Positions 55,230 through 61,563 of a stretch of DNA of 64,000 bases are shown here, piece after piece. The notes under the pieces are model-generated. The model saw only the letters and a program-made list of their open reading frames with translations, did not search any database and was not told the DNA's origin. Numbering within the stretch: the first letter of the stretch is position 1; every line of letters begins with the position of its first letter. This DNA comes from Bacteroidales bacterium (GTDB taxonomy: Bacteria; Bacteroidota; Bacteroidia; Bacteroidales; UBA12077), in the NCBI GenBank assembly GCA_030637515.1, contig DAOWGM010000143.1, forward strand, positions 1-64,000, given 5' to 3'. The position numbers and the translations under genes were made by a program.

Positions 55230-55703
55230 TTAGTATTCAAATGATCTTCCGGTTATTGACTCTACAGGAATCTTTATGATTAGTATATTATCAACAGAAG
55301 GTTTTGAAAATTCAAATTCACGTTCAGAATAATTTTTCATAAAAACATTTAAGGCTTTTATTTTCTCATCATAATCATCAATAAGAATTGCGTGGCCATG
55401 TATAAGAACACTTCTATATGCCATTCTCCACGAACAAGCAACATGCTCATGACGTGAGAATAACTTATGATCAGTGTCAAATTGCAGACAAACTTTATTG
55501 TTTCGTTTTAGTATATCTACTTTTTTACCTTCTTTGGCGCAATGTAACCAGACAGTTTGATCCGCATAACCAAAGTTCATTGCTAACACATATGGATCAT
55601 CACCATCGACCATTCCTACTCGGCAAATTTTACATTTTTTAATAATCTCTTCCAGTTTATCAAGATCGACAATATCCTTTATTGCCTTATCACGTTTAGC
55701 CAT
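55230..55703 (-). CDS. Pyridoxamine 5'-phosphate oxidase-family (NimA-like) protein
   Basis: A 157-residue flavin-binding split-barrel protein of the PNPOx/NimA group. CRVGMVDGDDPYVLAMNFGY (about 26-45), VWLHCAKEGKKVDILKRNNKVCLQFD and WRMAYRSVLIHGHAILIDD are the family blocks. Such proteins bind FMN or heme/F420; some confer nitroimidazole resistance. The precise role is unknown. It is the first gene of a two-gene unit with the thioesterase. Confidence 0.86.
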   Translation of the reverse strand: MAKRDKAIKDIVDLDKLEEIIKKCKICRVGMVDGDDPYVLAMNFGYADQTVWLHCAKEGKKVDILKRNNKVCLQFDTDHKLFSRHEHVACSWRMAYRSVLIHGHAILIDDYDEKIKALNVFMKNYSEREFEFSKPSVDNILIIKIPVESITGRSFEY

Positions 55704-55783: not shown

Positions 55784-57841
55784 TTAGTTTTCAGCAATAT
55801 TAAATAGTGGTAAGGTAAATATAATTGTTGTTCCTTTTCCTTCTTCACTTTCAATATAAATATCGCCATTGTTAATATGTACAAACTCTTTACAAAAGAA
55901 AAGACCTAAACCTTTACCTGTTTCACCCTTTGTTCCTTGAGTATTTCCATTTGCAAGTTCAAAAACCGCGTCCTTCTTATCAGCAGAAATCCCAATTCCT
56001 GAATCTTTAATCCATACATTTGCAAATTGCTGATTAATATCCACCCCAATATTTATTTTACCCTTTTCCGGAGTAAACTTTATAGCATTATTCAATAAAT
56101 TTCTGATAATCGTTAAAAACATATTTTTATCAGCAAAGACAATTGAATCTTTTGACGAACTAAATTGTAAGTCAATATTTTTTATTTGAGCTATTGGAAT
56201 ATACAAACTAATTGCATCTTGTATTGTTTCGATAATTTTAAAACTCTCTGGATTATAAGGAAATTTACCTTGTTGACTTAAAGCCCAGTTTAGTAAATTA
56301 TCTATTAAAGACAATACGTTATTTACAGATAGTTCCAGTGTTTTTGAAAGTCTGCTTAAGGACTCGTAATCCTGCTCTTCAACCCAATATGGTATTAATT
56401 GAGTAATACTTTCTATGGAAACCAGAGGACTTCTAAGGTCGTGGGCAATTATCTGAAATAAACGGTCTTTGGTTTTATTCGATTTCAACAATTTTTCATT
56501 TCGGTCAGCAATTTCAGCTCTCTGTTCATTTATTTTTTTATTTTTTCTGGCAAGAAATACTACGAAGACAATTGCTAATAAAGCAAATACAATTAATATA
56601 TTTCTTTGAAAACTTTTTTGATTAGCCTCAATGGTTTTCTTTGATAAATTAAGTTTTTGAATTTCTTGTTCTTTTTCTAAAAAAACAATCTGTTGGTCTC
56701 GTTTTTCAGCTTCGTATCTTTGTTCAAGTTCAGTTATTTGCTTTATTTTTTCTATCCCAAGTAAACTATCACTTACACTTTGATAAATCTTTTGGTAAGA
56801 AAAACTATTTTTATAATCATCGGCTTTTTCATAAGCCCAGATTAAACTTTCTGAAAGTCTTTTTTGTTTTAAAAGATTGCCTTGTTCTTTTGCCAAGCTA
56901 AATGCTTTTAATAAATAAGATAGGCCTTCATTAAAGTTTCCTTCCATTATTAAAACATTACCTAAACCTTGCAAAGTATATATAAGTATATCTTGTTCTC
57001 CTATTTCCTTTTCAATTTTTAAAGCTTTTAAATAATAATATTTAGCACTTTTAAAATACCGTTTAATTTGGTATATATCGCCCATGTTTTGCAACAACAA
57101 TAACTGACTATATTTAGAAGTATTCTCATCAATTAAATTAATTGCTTCGTTGTAGTAATCTATAGCTTTATTATTTTCATTTGTTTCTCTATAAACTGCT
57201 CCAATATTCATTAATGTTTTAATTACATGCTCATTACTTACATTCAACTCACGTCTAACTTCCAAATTTTGTAAATGAAATTCAAGAGATTTTTCATATT
57301 CTCCCATTTCAAGATATAAAACCCCCAGGTTATTCATTACATAACTTACTTTCACAGAATCTTCTATCTTCTTATATATTTTAAGGCTTGCTAAGAAATT
57401 TTCTACCGATTTTTCATAATCCCCTATTCGTTTATAAACATTACCTAGAGAATTCAGCACTCTTGCTTTTTCTCCAGATTTACCCATTTTTTCAAATAAA
57501 TTATAAGATTTTTTCGAATACTCAATAGCTTTTTTATAATTACTTTGGTATCTAAAAACCAGACCCAATTGAAATAGACTTTTTGCAATACCATATTCAT
57601 AGTTTAATTTTTCAGAAAAGTCCAAGGCTCTTTGGCCTAACATAAAAGCGGTATCTAGTTGAACTTTTAAATATGTATACGAAAGATCATTCAGCTCAAC
57701 AACCTTAGATGAATCATTTGGTAATGCATTTACATAAAGGAATAAACTATCAGGAGTAGTGTTTTGTGATCTCTCTTCACTAAATACGTTATATGAAGAA
57801 AAAAGAATGATTAGAACTAAAAAACTATTAACTAATCGCAT
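55784..57841 (-). CDS. TPR-sensor histidine kinase (copy 1)
   Basis: A 685-residue sensor kinase. Signal peptide (about 1-21), periplasmic region of six or seven TPR repeats (about 60-370), a charged coiled coil, a membrane helix (about 410-428), then HisKA with phospho-acceptor His467 in IIAHDLRSPLV. An HATPase domain follows (N box LLNNAIKFTP, G1 DSGIGIS, G2 GKGLGLFFCKEF) and the protein ends LPLFNIAEN. The TPR sensor is probably outside the cytoplasm. No response regulator is adjacent. A near-copy lies directly upstream and a 31-residue peptide gene 91 bp upstream. Confidence 0.93.
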   Translation of the reverse strand: MRLVNSFLVLIILFSSYNVFSEERSQNTTPDSLFLYVNALPNDSSKVVELNDLSYTYLKVQLDTAFMLGQRALDFSEKLNYEYGIAKSLFQLGLVFRYQSNYKKAIEYSKKSYNLFEKMGKSGEKARVLNSLGNVYKRIGDYEKSVENFLASLKIYKKIEDSVKVSYVMNNLGVLYLEMGEYEKSLEFHLQNLEVRRELNVSNEHVIKTLMNIGAVYRETNENNKAIDYYNEAINLIDENTSKYSQLLLLQNMGDIYQIKRYFKSAKYYYLKALKIEKEIGEQDILIYTLQGLGNVLIMEGNFNEGLSYLLKAFSLAKEQGNLLKQKRLSESLIWAYEKADDYKNSFSYQKIYQSVSDSLLGIEKIKQITELEQRYEAEKRDQQIVFLEKEQEIQKLNLSKKTIEANQKSFQRNILIVFALLAIVFVVFLARKNKKINEQRAEIADRNEKLLKSNKTKDRLFQIIAHDLRSPLVSIESITQLIPYWVEEQDYESLSRLSKTLELSVNNVLSLIDNLLNWALSQQGKFPYNPESFKIIETIQDAISLYIPIAQIKNIDLQFSSSKDSIVFADKNMFLTIIRNLLNNAIKFTPEKGKINIGVDINQQFANVWIKDSGIGISADKKDAVFELANGNTQGTKGETGKGLGLFFCKEFVHINNGDIYIESEEGKGTTIIFTLPLFNIAEN

Positions 57842-57864
57842 CTTAGAAGCAATTTAATGTGACA

Positions 57865-57872
57865 CAAACATA
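57865..57872 (-). promoter_or_regulatory. Candidate -7 element for kinase copy 1
   Basis: TATGTTTG on the minus strand is a full TAnnTTTG match 23 bp before the kinase ATG, downstream of the peptide terminator. No well-spaced TTG is seen. Confidence 0.45.
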
Positions 57873-57884
57873 CTGAATTAATTT

Positions 57885-57919
57885 CAAAAAAATAACTGCT
57901 TGAATTTTCAAACAGTTAT
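57885..57919 (-). terminator. Intrinsic terminator after the 31-residue peptide gene
   Basis: On the minus strand ATAACTG (57913-57919) pairs with CAGTTAT (57892-57898). The inner TTGAA/TTCAA extends the stem, and TTTTTTT follows. It lies 13 bp after the peptide stop and before the kinase gene. Confidence 0.85.
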
Positions 57920-57932
57920 CTAATTTTTTGAA

Positions 57933-58028
57933 TTAATCATCTTCTCCAGTTGTAGGAGGTGGTTTTGGTGGATCTGGATCATCACCACCTGGGACTCTGC
58001 TTACAATTGAATAGTTAAATAATGTCAT
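57933..58028 (-). CDS. 31-residue GG-site peptide with Pro/Asp-rich tail
   Basis: A short gene: ATG at 58028, TAA at 57933-57935. The product has a hydrophobic/basic start (MTLFNYSIVSRVPGG) and a tail of DDPDPPKPPPTTGEDD, rich in Asp and Pro. Gly14-Gly15 resembles a leader-cleavage site, though the leader is short and lacks the classic LS..E pattern. The gene is supported by a terminator 13 bp after the stop and by its place between two kinase genes, same strand. No homology is recognised; chance is not excluded. Confidence 0.58.
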   Translation of the reverse strand: MTLFNYSIVSRVPGGDDPDPPKPPPTTGEDD

Positions 58029-58243
58029 ATTTTTTTATTTTAGTTAACGTATTAAAACTAATTAAAAAAATTGAGTCTTCCTATTAATTATGAAAAATAT
58101 ACTTATTTATATTGCTGTATTCCAGCCACTTCACAAACCCGTAATCCGTTCTTTAGCATTCAGAATTTGAACCATAAATGAATGTAAGAAAATAAATTAG
58201 ATAATTATTTAACAAGTTGGATCTTGTTGAAACCCAACCAAAA

Positions 58244-60331
58244 TTAGTTTTCGGCAATATTAAAAAGCGGTAGTGTGAAAGTAATTGTTGTTCCTCTGCC
58301 TTTCTTGCTTTCTATATAAATATCGCCATTATTAATATTTACAAATTCTTTACAAAAAAATAAACCCAAGCCTTTACCCGTTTCACCTTTTGTTCCTTTA
58401 GTATGACCGTTTGCTAGTTCAAAAACGGCTTCTTTCTTACTAATGGGCATACCAATTCCTGAGTCTTTAACCCAAACTTTTGCAAATTGCTGATTTCTAT
58501 CTATTCCAACAGTTATTTCCCCATTTTCAGGTGTGAATTTCACTGCATTATTAAGTAGATTTCGCATCACTGTAAAGATCATATTTTTATCTGCAAAAAC
58601 CATTACCTTATTTAATGGTTTGAATTTAAGTTCAATATTTTTTATTTGTGCAATTGGACGATAGACATCTATTGTTTCTTCCAAATTTTCCTTAAGGTTA
58701 ATATTTTCCGGTTTATATGGGAATTTCCCCTGCTGATTTAATGCCCAGTTTAATAAGTTATCAATAAGAGATAATACATTATTGACAGACAACTCTAAGG
58801 TTTTTGAAAGTCTACTTAAGGATTCAAAATCCTGTTCTTCAACCCAATATGGGATTAGCTGTGTAATACTCTCCATTGAAACCAGAGGACTTCGAAGATC
58901 ATGAGCGATAATTTGAAATAGCTTGTCTTTGGTTTTATTCGATTCAAGTAAATAATCATTTTGTTTTGCTATCTCAATCCGTTGATCAGTAATTTTTGTG
59001 TTTTGTTTTAATAATAATTGATTCAATTTCTTTCGTTTTTTACTATCAATGAAATAGTATAGTAATACTGAAACAACCACTATTACTAAAATTATAAGTG
59101 CATTTCGCTGAAAACTCTTTTGTTTATTTTCAATTTCTTTTTTTGATATTTCAAGCTGCTGTATTTCTTTTTCCTTTTCTAAAAAAGCAATTTGCTGTTC
59201 TCTTTTTTCGGCATTATATTTTTCCTCTAGTTCAACAATTTGAGCTTTCTTCTCAAGGCTAAACATTTGATCCTCTATATCAACATAGTCTTTTAAATAT
59301 TTAACACTCTTCTTATAATCACCCTTACTTAAATAAACTTCATAGAGATTTATTGCTAATCTATGTGATTTTCGAATATCCTGAACTTCATTTGCTAAAT
59401 CAAAACTTTGAATTAAATACTTCTCACCTTCTTTAAAGCTTCCTTCCTTAATTAAAGTATTACCAAGTCCTTGTAATGAAAAAATAAGCATTTCTTTTTC
59501 GCCAATTTCTTTTTGAATTGTTATTGCTTTTAAGTAAAAGTTAATAGCATCCTTTAACTTCCCATTCTGTTCATACGAATTTCCTATATTATGTAAAAGT
59601 AGCATCTGATCGTATTTGTTGTCCGAGTTTGCTAACAAATCAAGTGCCATTTTATAATATTCAACCGACTTATTATATGATCCTAACTCCCCATAAACAT
59701 TACCAATATTCATATAAGTAACAGCCAAATTTGATTCCTGATTTAGTTTCTTATTAATTTCAAGAGTTAATAAATAATACTCCAGAGATTTATCTAATTC
59801 GCCGCGATCATAATACAATACACCAATGTTATTTATGATATGTGACATTCGTGTCGAATCATTTAAACTTTGGTATATTTTAAGGCTTTTCATAAAGCAC
59901 TCTGTCGATTCGTCAAACTTTCCATATCTTTTATAAACATTCCCTAGCCTGTTTAGGATGCTTGCTTGCTCAAATTCGTTTTTAAGAATATCGAAAAGTG
60001 TTAATGATTTATTGTAGTAATATAATGCTGAATCGTATTGAGTTTGATACTTAAATACTAAACCCATTTGGTTCAACGATGTTGCATATCCAAAATCATA
60101 TTTCAATTCTTCTGATAGTTTAATCGCCTTTTTGCAAAGTAAAAAGGAAGTATCCGATTGTATTTTAAGGTACTTATAAGAAAGATCCTTTAATTGCAAT
60201 ACTTTATTAGTATCATCGGGAGAACTCAACACTTCTTTTTTTAAGCTATCTAATTCATTAGATGCTAAAGAATTATTAAAAATTCCTGACAATAGAAATA
60301 AAACTAATATAAAACAATTAAAGAATCTCAT
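58244..60331 (-). CDS. TPR-sensor histidine kinase (copy 2)
   Basis: A 695-residue paralogue of the downstream kinase. Signal peptide (about 1-23), a TPR array (about 65-370), coiled coil with repeated EKRE/EKEKEI, a membrane helix (about 418-436), HisKA with His477 (IIAHDLRSPLV), and HATPase (LLNNAVKFTP, DSGIGMP, GKGLGLFFCKEF), ending LPLFNIAEN. The catalytic domains of the two copies are nearly identical, while the TPR parts diverge more. It starts 8 bp after a 112-residue gene and is probably translated with it. The 215 bp to the peptide gene downstream show only a weak AACAAG/CTTGTT hairpin. Confidence 0.93.
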   Translation of the reverse strand: MRFFNCFILVLFLLSGIFNNSLASNELDSLKKEVLSSPDDTNKVLQLKDLSYKYLKIQSDTSFLLCKKAIKLSEELKYDFGYATSLNQMGLVFKYQTQYDSALYYYNKSLTLFDILKNEFEQASILNRLGNVYKRYGKFDESTECFMKSLKIYQSLNDSTRMSHIINNIGVLYYDRGELDKSLEYYLLTLEINKKLNQESNLAVTYMNIGNVYGELGSYNKSVEYYKMALDLLANSDNKYDQMLLLHNIGNSYEQNGKLKDAINFYLKAITIQKEIGEKEMLIFSLQGLGNTLIKEGSFKEGEKYLIQSFDLANEVQDIRKSHRLAINLYEVYLSKGDYKKSVKYLKDYVDIEDQMFSLEKKAQIVELEEKYNAEKREQQIAFLEKEKEIQQLEISKKEIENKQKSFQRNALIILVIVVVSVLLYYFIDSKKRKKLNQLLLKQNTKITDQRIEIAKQNDYLLESNKTKDKLFQIIAHDLRSPLVSMESITQLIPYWVEEQDFESLSRLSKTLELSVNNVLSLIDNLLNWALNQQGKFPYKPENINLKENLEETIDVYRPIAQIKNIELKFKPLNKVMVFADKNMIFTVMRNLLNNAVKFTPENGEITVGIDRNQQFAKVWVKDSGIGMPISKKEAVFELANGHTKGTKGETGKGLGLFFCKEFVNINNGDIYIESKKGRGTTITFTLPLFNIAEN

Positions 60332-60339
60332 TTTTTTGT

Positions 60340-60678
60340 TTATTCTATTTCACCATTTCCTCTTCCAGTTTTCCCTTCACCATCAGGATCTCCATTGCGC
60401 AACATGTTATCATAATTTTTAACGATGATTTTTATATTATCTAATTGTTTAACATCTTTTGGTGTTAAATCAATTTTATACTCTTCCATTTTCTCTTTTA
60501 GAGCATCAACTTCTTTTGTTTCATTTAACTTTATGCGAACTTCCCAATAATCATTTACGAAATTTTGCTCAATTGCAGTTTTCTTAACATTCCCTGGTAA
60601 TTTTACTACAAGGTCTAATCGATAATTTGTTGTTCCTGCTCTATAAAACAAGTTAAAATACGGATAATAAAGTTTCAT
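60340..60678 (-). CDS. 112-residue protein with the peptide-like acidic tail
   Basis: Unknown protein directly upstream (8 bp) of kinase copy 2. The N-terminal part (1-93) is mixed alpha/beta: YRLDLVVKLPGNV and NDYWEVRIKL, then a charged helix and LTPKDVKQLDNIKIIVKNYD. The last 18 residues, NGDPDGEGKTGRGNGEIE, match the tail of the 38-residue peptide at 60862-60978 at 14 of 18 positions by eye. No signal peptide or GG leader is visible. It may be a larger partner, carrier or immunity-like relative of the peptide. Confidence 0.75.
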   Translation of the reverse strand: MKLYYPYFNLFYRAGTTNYRLDLVVKLPGNVKKTAIEQNFVNDYWEVRIKLNETKEVDALKEKMEEYKIDLTPKDVKQLDNIKIIVKNYDNMLRNGDPDGEGKTGRGNGEIE

Positions 60679-60808
60679 GCTTTTAATCTTTTAATGTTTA
60701 ACAATATCTTATTTAAAGTTAATACAAAAATTATGAAGTCCTAAAATAATTTGTTAAAAGATTAATATTGTTTTATTGATATACAGATACAATAGTAATT
60801 ATTGAAAT

Positions 60809-60839
60809 AAAAAAAAGACATAGATAAAACTATGTCTTT
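60809..60839 (-). terminator. Intrinsic terminator after the 38-residue peptide gene
   Basis: On the minus strand AAAGACATAG (60830-60839) pairs perfectly with CTATGTCTTT (60814-60823) around a 6-nt loop, followed by TTTTTATT. It lies 22 bp after the peptide stop. Confidence 0.88.
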
Positions 60840-60861
60840 CTGAGTAAAATTTCATTTCTAA

Positions 60862-60978
60862 CTATGGTTCTATTTCTCCATTTCCAAGCCCGGTTGAACC
60901 TTCATCGTCAATATCTCCATTACCACCTTTAATTACTAGCATTTCTTCAATTGATAATTGTAGTTCCTCAATAAACAT
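60862..60978 (-). CDS. 38-residue double-glycine-leader peptide
   Basis: A small gene (ATG 60978, TAG 60862-60864). The leader MFIEELQLSIEEMLVIKGG ends in GG, with the LS-x-EE-M and I-x-GG pattern of peptides cut by C39-peptidase ABC exporters. The remaining 19 residues, NGDIDDEGSTGLGNGEIEP, are acidic and Gly-rich without Cys. A candidate promoter lies upstream and a strong terminator follows, so it forms a complete unit of its own. It could be a pheromone, bacteriocin or RiPP precursor. No exporter or modifying enzyme is in the window. Confidence 0.75.
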   Translation of the reverse strand: MFIEELQLSIEEMLVIKGGNGDIDDEGSTGLGNGEIEP

Positions 60979-61016
60979 AATCTTTAGTTTTTGGGTTAGA
61001 TATTTATTTAACACAC

Positions 61017-61047
61017 CTAAATTAGTAAGAATTTTAATTAAATACAA
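61017..61047 (-). promoter_or_regulatory. Candidate promoter of the 38-residue peptide gene
   Basis: On the minus strand TTG (61045-61047), a 20-nt spacer and TAATTTAG (61017-61024; one mismatch to TAnnTTTG) lie about 40 bp before the peptide ATG, right after the stop of the RNA methyltransferase gene. Confidence 0.45.
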
Positions 61048-61563
61048 TTACAAATAATTTTGTCTTTGCCACTCAAATAAGGCTATTGCTAACGAGTGCG
61101 ATACATTAAGAGATTTGTTATTCCCATGTAATGGAATATGAACAATTTTGCTGCACTTATCTAATAAACTATAATCAACACCAGAAATTTCATTCCCAAC
61201 AATAAATACTATTTTTTGAGGAAGCTCTGTTTTAAAAACATTAACTGAGTCACTTGATGTTTCTATCGCAATCCACTCGTAATCGAAAGGAATTCTGTTT
61301 TTTAATTCGTCAACAGAACAAAAGCCCCATTTTACAGAATCAAAGCTTGATGATGCGGTTCTTTTTATTTTCGAAGCACGAACATTTTCACCGTCAGAAA
61401 TAATAATAACTTCTTTACAGGCTATATTATCTCCAAGGCGAATAATATTTCCGATATTTTCGGGAGTTTTAATATTGTATCCAACTATAATCGGACGATA
61501 GAAATTTTCTGGTAATATTTTGTTTGTAAATAGCTCTTTCGAATGGATTGTCCTTTTTGCCAT
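61048..61563 (-). CDS. SpoU/TrmH-family RNA 2'-O-methyltransferase
   Basis: A 171-residue SPOUT methyltransferase that would methylate a ribose in tRNA or rRNA with SAM. The three SpoU motifs are visible: PENIGNIIRLGDN (about 34-46), IVFIVGNEISGVD (about 118-130) and VHIPLHGNNKSLNVSHSLAIALFEW (about 140-164, key IP-G-SLNVS). No extra substrate-binding domain, so the TrmL/TrmH-like short form. It is 7 bp downstream of a 5-formyl-THF cyclo-ligase gene. Confidence 0.88.
   Translation of the reverse strand: MAKRTIHSKELFTNKILPENFYRPIIVGYNIKTPENIGNIIRLGDNIACKEVIIISDGENVRASKIKRTASSSFDSVKWGFCSVDELKNRIPFDYEWIAIETSSDSVNVFKTELPQKIVFIVGNEISGVDYSLLDKCSKIVHIPLHGNNKSLNVSHSLAIALFEWQRQNYL

Follow-up and report, generated by a model that had tools for sequence, protein, structure and literature searches.

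Little is known about the signals to which the tetratricopeptide repeat (TPR) sensor kinases of Bacteroidota respond, and we analyzed a locus that bears on this question because it offers candidate ligands paired with candidate receptors. The locus lies in a 64,000-nucleotide stretch of a Bacteroidales bacterium genome (henceforth the window; GenBank contig DAOWGM010000143.1 of assembly GCA_030637515.1), which is contig C180 of genome G000 in a collection that holds 20 genomes of the window's genus. A cassette on the minus strand (60978-55784) encodes, in order, a 38-amino-acid (aa) peptide followed by a putative terminator, a 112-aa protein, TPR sensor histidine kinase 2, a 31-aa peptide followed by a second putative terminator, and TPR sensor histidine kinase 1. 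A preliminary description of this DNA had given the same order, all parts of which we recovered, and had proposed that the peptides are exported and sensed by a periplasmic TPR part of the kinases. Is the cassette indeed a signalling system in which each sensor reads the small gene product encoded beside it? We judge it somewhat more probable than its alternatives combined that this is a polymorphic locus for a pherotype-like peptide signal and its periplasmic TPR receptor kinase, based on the conservation of the small genes, the way the sensor parts vary with them and the replacement of sensors between close species.

Conservation of the short frames alongside the kinases had been set beforehand as one test of this proposal, and the proposal passes it. 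The kinase is present in 18 of the 20 genomes of the genus (E<=1e-110; it is missing from G001 and G019), and in all 18 kinase-bearing loci a small gene with an acidic, D/E/P/G-rich tail lies directly upstream of it, being a 112-family gene, a short peptide gene or both. We defined a tail filter (at least six D/E/P/G and at most one hydrophobic residue among the last 12), devised after the peptides had been seen, which passes 23 of the 2560 small open reading frames (ORFs) in these loci (212,805 bp), every one of them upstream of a kinase and on the same strand; in G008, a contig end truncates the kinase that the short peptide precedes. The filter undercounts, because the 38-aa peptide of the window itself fails it with two hydrophobic residues. 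Dinucleotide-matched random DNA gave 1/3470, 0/3551 and 0/3467 passing frames, and none of the 2175 small ORFs in 20 other TPR or kinase regions of the window's own genome passed. Among the 1391 small ORFs at 14 TPR-kinase loci from other families (28-35% identity), three passed, of which two run antisense to the kinase gene and the third falls within a different gene.

Kinase and small gene are also missing together in the one genome without the kinase that can be judged, G001 (78% complete). Its neighbourhood is intact: a response regulator gene, the two genes that come after it, a 132-aa gene and a PNPOx-like gene stand in a row, with the kinase absent and none of the 108 small ORFs on the 7647-base contig passing the tail filter. 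In G019 (83% complete), the second genome without the kinase, the marker gene was not found; the PNPOx marker was present in one of five genomes of the sister genus (G021), at a locus without the kinases. The G001 locus (L303:258-1895, G001:C60) is a natural cassette-free arrangement in which the 132-aa gene stands between the TrmH-like and PNPOx-like genes, and this gene is also found downstream of the kinase in G003. In the window, the TrmH-like gene (61048-61563) precedes the 38-aa peptide and the PNPOx-like gene (55230-55703) follows kinase 1 in minus-strand order; we take both names from our own reading of the sequences, from no search.

If the kinases recognize the products of the small genes, the sensor should vary with the type of small gene. 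Indeed, the TPR sensor tracks the type of the upstream gene and the kinase domain hardly does. We built trees of the TPR part (21 kinases) and of the histidine kinase (HK) part (19 kinases) and labelled each kinase by its nearest upstream gene, 112-family or peptide. On the TPR tree the label changes twice versus 7.2 times in shuffles (p 0.0002), or 2 versus 6.6 times in a 19-kinase version (p 0.001), and these p-values are rough since shuffles ignore relatedness. One group of the TPR tree (clade A, ultrafast bootstrap support of 100) unites the kinases of G009 and G007 and the first kinase (K1) of G011, G014 and G000, which are all the tree kinases behind peptides of the MKLxxYxIVxRVP type; the G009 peptide, MKQLDYPLVTRFP, is the most divergent of these. 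TPR identity is 61.2% inside clade A and 42.4% to the rest, whereas HK identity is 68.0% in both comparisons. Pairs with the same label gain 6.1 points of identity in the TPR part (0/5000 shuffles as high) and 0.2 points in the HK part (p 0.32), and seven positions in the TPR part, versus none in the HK part, distinguish clade A (5/5) from the 112-type kinases (at least 8/9). Paralogues within one genome share 42-47% of their TPR residues and 72-83% of their HK residues, and K1 proteins compared across species share 71-80% and 69-79%, respectively.

How such variation may arise is suggested by three close species, G002, G005 and G016, in which the first ~300 residues of the kinase and the spacer before them have been replaced. 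Among this trio the PNPOx-like protein is 95-97% and the HK part 92-96% identical, while the TPR part reaches only 57-69%, and synonymous divergence (dS) is 1.16-1.83 in the TPR part versus 0.10-0.39 in the HK part. A DNA identity profile in 60-base windows locates the change: identity is 84-100% over the alignable parts of the TrmH-like gene and mostly 85-98% over codons 1-85 of the 116-aa gene that represents the 112 family in the trio; it then drops across the end of this gene and the following spacer to mostly 40-65% in the early kinase gene, and from about kinase residue 290-300 it is again 77-100% through the PNPOx-like gene. There is one exception in the pairs with G005, a 55% window near the transmembrane (TM) segment, and between G002 and G005 the recovery is gradual and sets in sooner, at about residue 120-180. 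The start of the G005 sensor (28-180) is nearest to that of G018, at 62% versus 52% to its close relative G002, and G005 and G018 both have a peptide of the family to which the 38-aa peptide belongs; in this nearest-relative comparison, the high HK identities to G012_K2 come from a small number of columns and were ignored. The 116-aa carrier itself shows no swap, and fast amino acid change is confined to its tail: the proportions of nonsynonymous (pN) and synonymous (pS) differences are 0.17-0.23 and 0.34-0.40 in codons 86-116, and 0.034-0.038 and 0.22-0.32 in codons 1-85. For the window's own K1 unit, pS between G000 and G014 is 0.43-0.47 versus 0.59-0.73 in four flank genes, which is no more than suggestive of horizontal transfer of the unit between these two genomes.

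Are the kinases built to receive a peptide outside the cytoplasm? Both kinase 1 (685 aa, 55784-57841, minus strand) and kinase 2 (695 aa, 58244-60331, minus strand) match TPR repeats, HisKA and HATPase_c in Pfam. In all 21 kinases scanned for hydropathy, a TM-like peak lies after the TPR part, at residue 387-413. A hydrophobic stretch near the N-terminus can be made out by eye, and just 3 of the 21 rows reach the TM-peak threshold there, many rows beginning some residues into the gene since match coordinates were used. The TM peak, together with N-termini that resemble signal peptides by eye, makes a periplasmic TPR part likely. The array comprises eight repeats of 40 residues, counted by eye, in which N127, N208 and N248 are invariant and N168 is nearly so; by our reading of the repeats these residues would lie on the inner TPR helix, where known peptide-binding TPR proteins carry a conserved Asn. 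The nearest named relatives of the kinases come from metagenome-assembled genomes of Bacteroidales or Bacteroidetes bacterium. A scan of genome contigs for the kinase kept 80 matches at 78 loci, of which 18 are the loci of the genus; the rest, nearly all kinase-core matches from Acinetobacter, were dropped.

The small genes differ in build and share a style of tail. The 38-aa peptide (MFIEELQLSIEEMLVIKGG/NGDIDDEGSTGLGNGEIEP; 60862-60978, minus strand), whose ATG sits within a longer TTG frame, joins a putative double-glycine (GG) leader, ELQLSIEEMLVIKGG, to an acidic Gly-rich tail. Among the three small gene products of the window, it alone has a leader that shows conserved hydrophobic positions and closes with GG; the products of the 31-aa and 112-aa genes lack one. 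Relatives occur at 5 of the 18 loci (G000, G014, G011, G005 and G018), their place in the gene order varies, and four of the five keep the GG motif, G005 reading KGD instead. The 31-aa peptide (57933-58028, minus strand) belongs to the class that combines MKLxxYxIVxRVP with an acidic, Pro-containing tail. A GG type had been ascribed to both peptides beforehand, and this part of the preliminary description holds for the 38-aa peptide and its five-locus family and fails for the 31-aa peptide, because the relatives of the latter in G008 and G014 read RVPDPDPDPPKPPPTTEEDD and its GG is thus not conserved.

The third carrier is the 112-aa protein (60340-60678, minus strand), composed of a predicted beta domain (about residues 1-88) and a variable acidic tail, GDPDGEGKTGRGNGEIE, that ends in RGNGEIE and, as had been noted before, resembles the tail of the 38-aa GG peptide (GxGNGEIE). 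A profile of the GG peptides matches the tail of the 112-family gene of G012 at E 0.017; the biased composition of these stretches makes the resemblance weak. Between G000 and G008, codons 1-88 have pN 0.056 and pS 0.63, and the tail has pN 0.096 and pS 0.37; pN far below pS in codons 1-88 indicates a real protein under purifying selection, less so in the tail. AlphaFold2 models of 12 sequences have block pLDDT (predicted local distance difference test) values of 78-92 over the beta domain, with the tail weakly predicted (55-65), and a Foldseek search of the 112-aa model against the PDB returned nothing at E<=0.001 (best 5bmt, E 0.3), so that no fold is assigned. Homologues occur in 12 of 147 genomes, all within the window's genus, and a profile matches 5 of 393 genomes of the order, four strongly and of this genus, the fifth (G251) weakly (E 0.0016; a 605-aa frame with a stop). 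The family thus appears restricted to the genus among the 147 and 393 sampled genomes, this one weak match apart.

How the small genes and kinases are expressed bears on whether the peptides do anything at all. A terminator-like hairpin with a U-run follows the 38-aa GG peptide (60812-60841, minus strand, -12.8 kcal/mol), and another, ATAACTGTTTG / CAAGCAGTTAT with a U-run, follows the 31-aa peptide (57890-57921, minus strand); the latter came from a second hairpin analysis and is absent among the sites of the first terminator scan. Across the loci of the genus, 11 of the 15 short peptides have such a hairpin behind them, which in one case is weak. The preliminary description saw a unit of peptide, terminator and TPR kinase occurring twice. 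There is indeed a terminator-like hairpin after both peptides, but the two units differ, since the 112-aa gene lies between the first hairpin and kinase 2 and ends 8 nt before the latter, with no space for a terminator. It had further been suggested that the terminators would yield much peptide and little kinase, an idea weakened by a promoter-like element between terminator and kinase 1, TATGTTTG (57865-57872, minus strand), which follows the terminator in 6 of 6 clade-A loci (chance of TAnnTTTG ~0.10 per 130 nt).

Another element, TTAACTTTA (60714-60722, minus strand), may be the -7 part of the 112-aa gene's promoter. It is found 37-44 nt ahead of the ATG in 9 of 12 112-family genes and 21-44 nt ahead of it in 6 of 15 peptides (one has a second copy at 99), with 31 occurrences in the 212,805 bp of loci versus 14 in 189,102 bp of control regions. 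Bacteroidota-like promoters have a -33/-7 consensus, and the pattern TTG-N18-20-TAnnTTT[AG] stands before 14 of 27 small genes versus 4.3% by chance; it precedes none of the three small genes of the window, where the -33 part is degenerate. These promoter and terminator elements are sequence patterns. The hairpin arms after the clade-A peptide class are similar in G000, G008, G014, G011, G007 and G009, and these arms (AACTGTTTG / CAAACAGTT or close) are conserved beyond what a terminator alone requires.

The hairpins invite the explanation that the small ORFs are attenuator leader peptides without a function of their own, in which ribosomes stalling at Pro, Asp or Gly codons gate the terminator. 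Hairpins after most short peptides would fit, as would the Pro runs in many tails, since Pro runs stall ribosomes. We nevertheless consider attenuation improbable: several tails have little or no Pro (those of G009, G013 and the GG peptide of G000), no terminator was found after 4 of the 15 peptides, and the gene 8 nt before kinase 2 encodes a folded protein. Moreover, the terminator stem is present in the minimum free energy folds of six leader regions, a promoter-like element follows the terminator, and attenuation leaves the tracking of peptide class by the TPR part unexplained.

Could the GG peptides be exported? C39 domains are found in 13 of 14 genomes of the genus examined (the miss being G005, 79% complete), and the window's own genome has a single copy of a C39 peptidase transporter, on G000:C119. 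The exporter locus (L169) encodes a 53-aa GG peptide with the tail DGDPDDDLWPPTTDDGNN, divergent from a TPR-CHAT gene, and over L169:1180-10422 also another TPR protein, a protein that matches HisKA and has no HATPase match, and a LytTR protein (all by Pfam). Similar GG peptides adjoin a divergent large frame in G003, G014, G017, G019, G013, G008, G011, G004 and G012, and the peptide is also matched in G006, so that it recurs in at least 10 other genomes of the genus; the Pfam identification of the large frame is for G000. A profile of nine exporter peptides, from which the window peptide was excluded, matches the 38-aa peptide (E 8.3e-5, profile positions 23-42) and so speaks for a common leader.

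Bacteriocins and ribosomally synthesized and post-translationally modified peptides (RiPPs) typically come with GG leaders and C39 transporters. Bacteroidales RiPP clusters that contain peptidase-containing ATP-binding transporters (PCATs) and TPR genes are reported (PMC10352776). The peptides might then be antimicrobial or RiPP precursors exported via C39 and regulated by a kinase that senses something else, such as envelope stress. We hold this to be unlikely, as the tails are strongly acidic, unlike typical membrane-active peptides, no modification enzyme is seen by eye at the locus, and TIGR04192, the sole graspetide ligase model searched, matches none of seven genomes. Covariation with the sensor would also go unexplained.

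If the small gene products are signals for the kinases, the following scheme would account for the locus. Each kinase would recognize the acidic Pro/Gly-rich tail encoded just upstream, which may be presented on three carriers: a 19-residue GG leader (the C39 ABC transporter of the genome being the probable protease and exporter), a shorter one of ~13 residues (MKLxxYxIVxRVP) or the 88-residue beta domain of the 112-aa protein. The tail would reach the periplasm or the outside and bind the concave groove of the periplasmic TPR array, altering HisKA/HATPase autophosphorylation and thereby a response regulator encoded elsewhere; because the cassette holds no response regulator, we assign none. 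Signal type and sensor part would diversify jointly and be exchanged, with the kinase part conserved since it must talk to a shared regulator and perhaps homogenized between the two copies. What the sequences show directly is the order of the genes, their conservation, their joint presence and absence, the correlation of sensor with small-gene type and the mosaic sensor replacement; the topology, the export and binding of the peptides, the direction of the response, the regulator and its target are inferences.

Several observations weigh against this scheme. Its main gap is that the short class and the 112-aa protein have no recognized export signal, and GG-family peptides occur at just the five loci listed above. 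The cassette contains neither a response regulator nor a transporter gene. The 14 TPR kinases of other families without such peptides may mean that most TPR kinases of the order do without them. The tails are of low complexity and hard to align, and the filter that selects them is post hoc. Labelling is not always clear-cut, as G005 carries a 118-aa gene as well as a peptide of the GG family, and its label follows whichever lies closer to the kinase. The HK tree has some structure of its own (4 label changes versus 6.6 in shuffles, p 0.044, as rough as the values for the TPR tree), the 112-type kinases do not form a single TPR clade (G002 and G016 fall outside the main 112 group), and ordinary gene conversion might account for the similarity of the HK parts inside a genome. 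In the trio, the spacer that precedes the 116-aa gene aligns poorly and is divergent too, and the 116-aa gene is 84-85% alike despite the sensor replacement; the swapped segment therefore begins after that gene, and signal and sensor have not always moved together.

The export gap is where a further explanation finds its footing, namely that the tails are intracellular regulatory subunits of the kinases, fast-evolving small proteins that co-evolve with them without cell-cell signalling. A similar style of tail on three different carriers would suit such subunits as well as the two products without a recognized export signal. The GG-family leaders at five loci, by contrast, argue for export of at least that form, and the mosaic replacement within the genus resembles pherotype exchange; on balance we doubt the intracellular explanation.

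Does a peptide signal read by a TPR kinase correspond to any known system? The agr, ComC-ComD and ComX-ComP systems of Gram-positive bacteria likewise place a small peptide gene beside a histidine kinase and combine a variable signal and sensor segment with a conserved kinase core. The agr and ComD sensors are, however, polytopic membrane proteins of the HPK10 class, whereas the kinases here have a TPR array, one strong TM peak and a HisKA domain, the cassette has no processing gene or regulator, and the host belongs to the Bacteroidota. The RRNPP family (Rap, PlcR, NprR and Rgg) resembles our kinases in having TPR repeats with a conserved Asn as the peptide receptor, which is the proposed role here. 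RRNPP receptors are cytoplasmic, have helix-turn-helix or phosphatase functions and depend on import of the peptide; the TPR part of the window kinases is probably periplasmic and joined to a HisKA/HATPase part, and the tails are longer and acidic. The preliminary description had drawn on Rap and PlcR for its peptide-sensing idea: a sensor that is probably periplasmic and covaries with the small-gene type still speaks for sensing, but the cytoplasmic location of those receptors means that the window kinases would be another kind of TPR receptor.

Closer in build is FimS of Porphyromonas gingivalis (NF053520), with the same TPR sensor and HisKA/HATPase architecture. It is the top NCBIfam match of both window kinases (257 and 278 bits), which stay below the curated equivalog cut-off of 600. 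Its authors state that the FimS signal is not known and that a polypeptide ligand is possible (PMC11053733). Bacteroidales GG-leader/PCAT peptides share the leader type of the 38-aa peptide, the window's genome likewise has a C39 ABC transporter, and such clusters with TPR genes are known (PMC10352776); in the window no maturation enzyme is seen, the transporter is elsewhere and the peptide is paired with a TPR kinase. Searches of the open-licence PMC literature brought up no peptide-kinase system with this layout; if our preferred reading is true, the cassette would represent peptide signalling or self-recognition of this layout in a Gram-negative phylum. The natural variants of tail and sensor lend themselves to specificity comparisons.

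Lastly, how far do GG peptides beside TPR proteins extend? The exporter-peptide profile matches 13 of 384 genomes of the order, five of the genus and eight others with 13 places, although the weakest matches may be chance and a clear small ORF is not at every place. At 10 of the 13 outside places we checked one large neighbouring frame each: seven are TPR proteins, from five of the eight genomes (three from G046), one is a histidine kinase and two are neither; we count the TPR neighbours in favour of the signal-receptor reading. Whole TPR-CHAT genes beside GG peptides were confirmed in G046 (two) and G114. The version coupled to a kinase seems to be a system of this genus, and GG peptides beside TPR proteins may be broader. 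A more sweeping view is that the periplasmic TPR arrays found in Bacteroidota form a class of receptors for acidic peptides that the bacteria make themselves, the genus having a pherotype system with one kind of tail on three unrelated carriers and sensor cassettes swapped onto a conserved kinase, and TPR-CHAT proteins beside GG peptides being a second such receptor with a protease output; we put this forward tentatively, as a possibility that falls short of even chances.

Further features were noted along the way. Upstream of the cassette lies a separate conserved unit, presumably an RprY-like pair. In G046, GG peptides with Pro/Asp-rich tails (L172:4793-4900 and L170:5490-5579) are divergent from TPR-CHAT genes; a sigma-like gene and then a TPR-like anti-sigma gene, both named by eye, come next. 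G168 carries, in another family, near-identical tandem GG peptides upstream of a HisKA/HATPase kinase (L292:1417-1857, G168:C84; three profile matches). The exporter locus of G007 (L206:10193-17991) contains further genes that resemble YcaO and LanB and may be a RiPP cluster, and in G006 a different, Cys-rich 56-aa GG peptide (L201:7669-7839) lies between two C39-domain genes. Finally, the exporter locus of the window's genome, L169, includes a HlyD-like gene, by eye, and a 113-aa secreted-looking protein (L169:15955-16296) made of repeats like DYQADxKVFxTDY.

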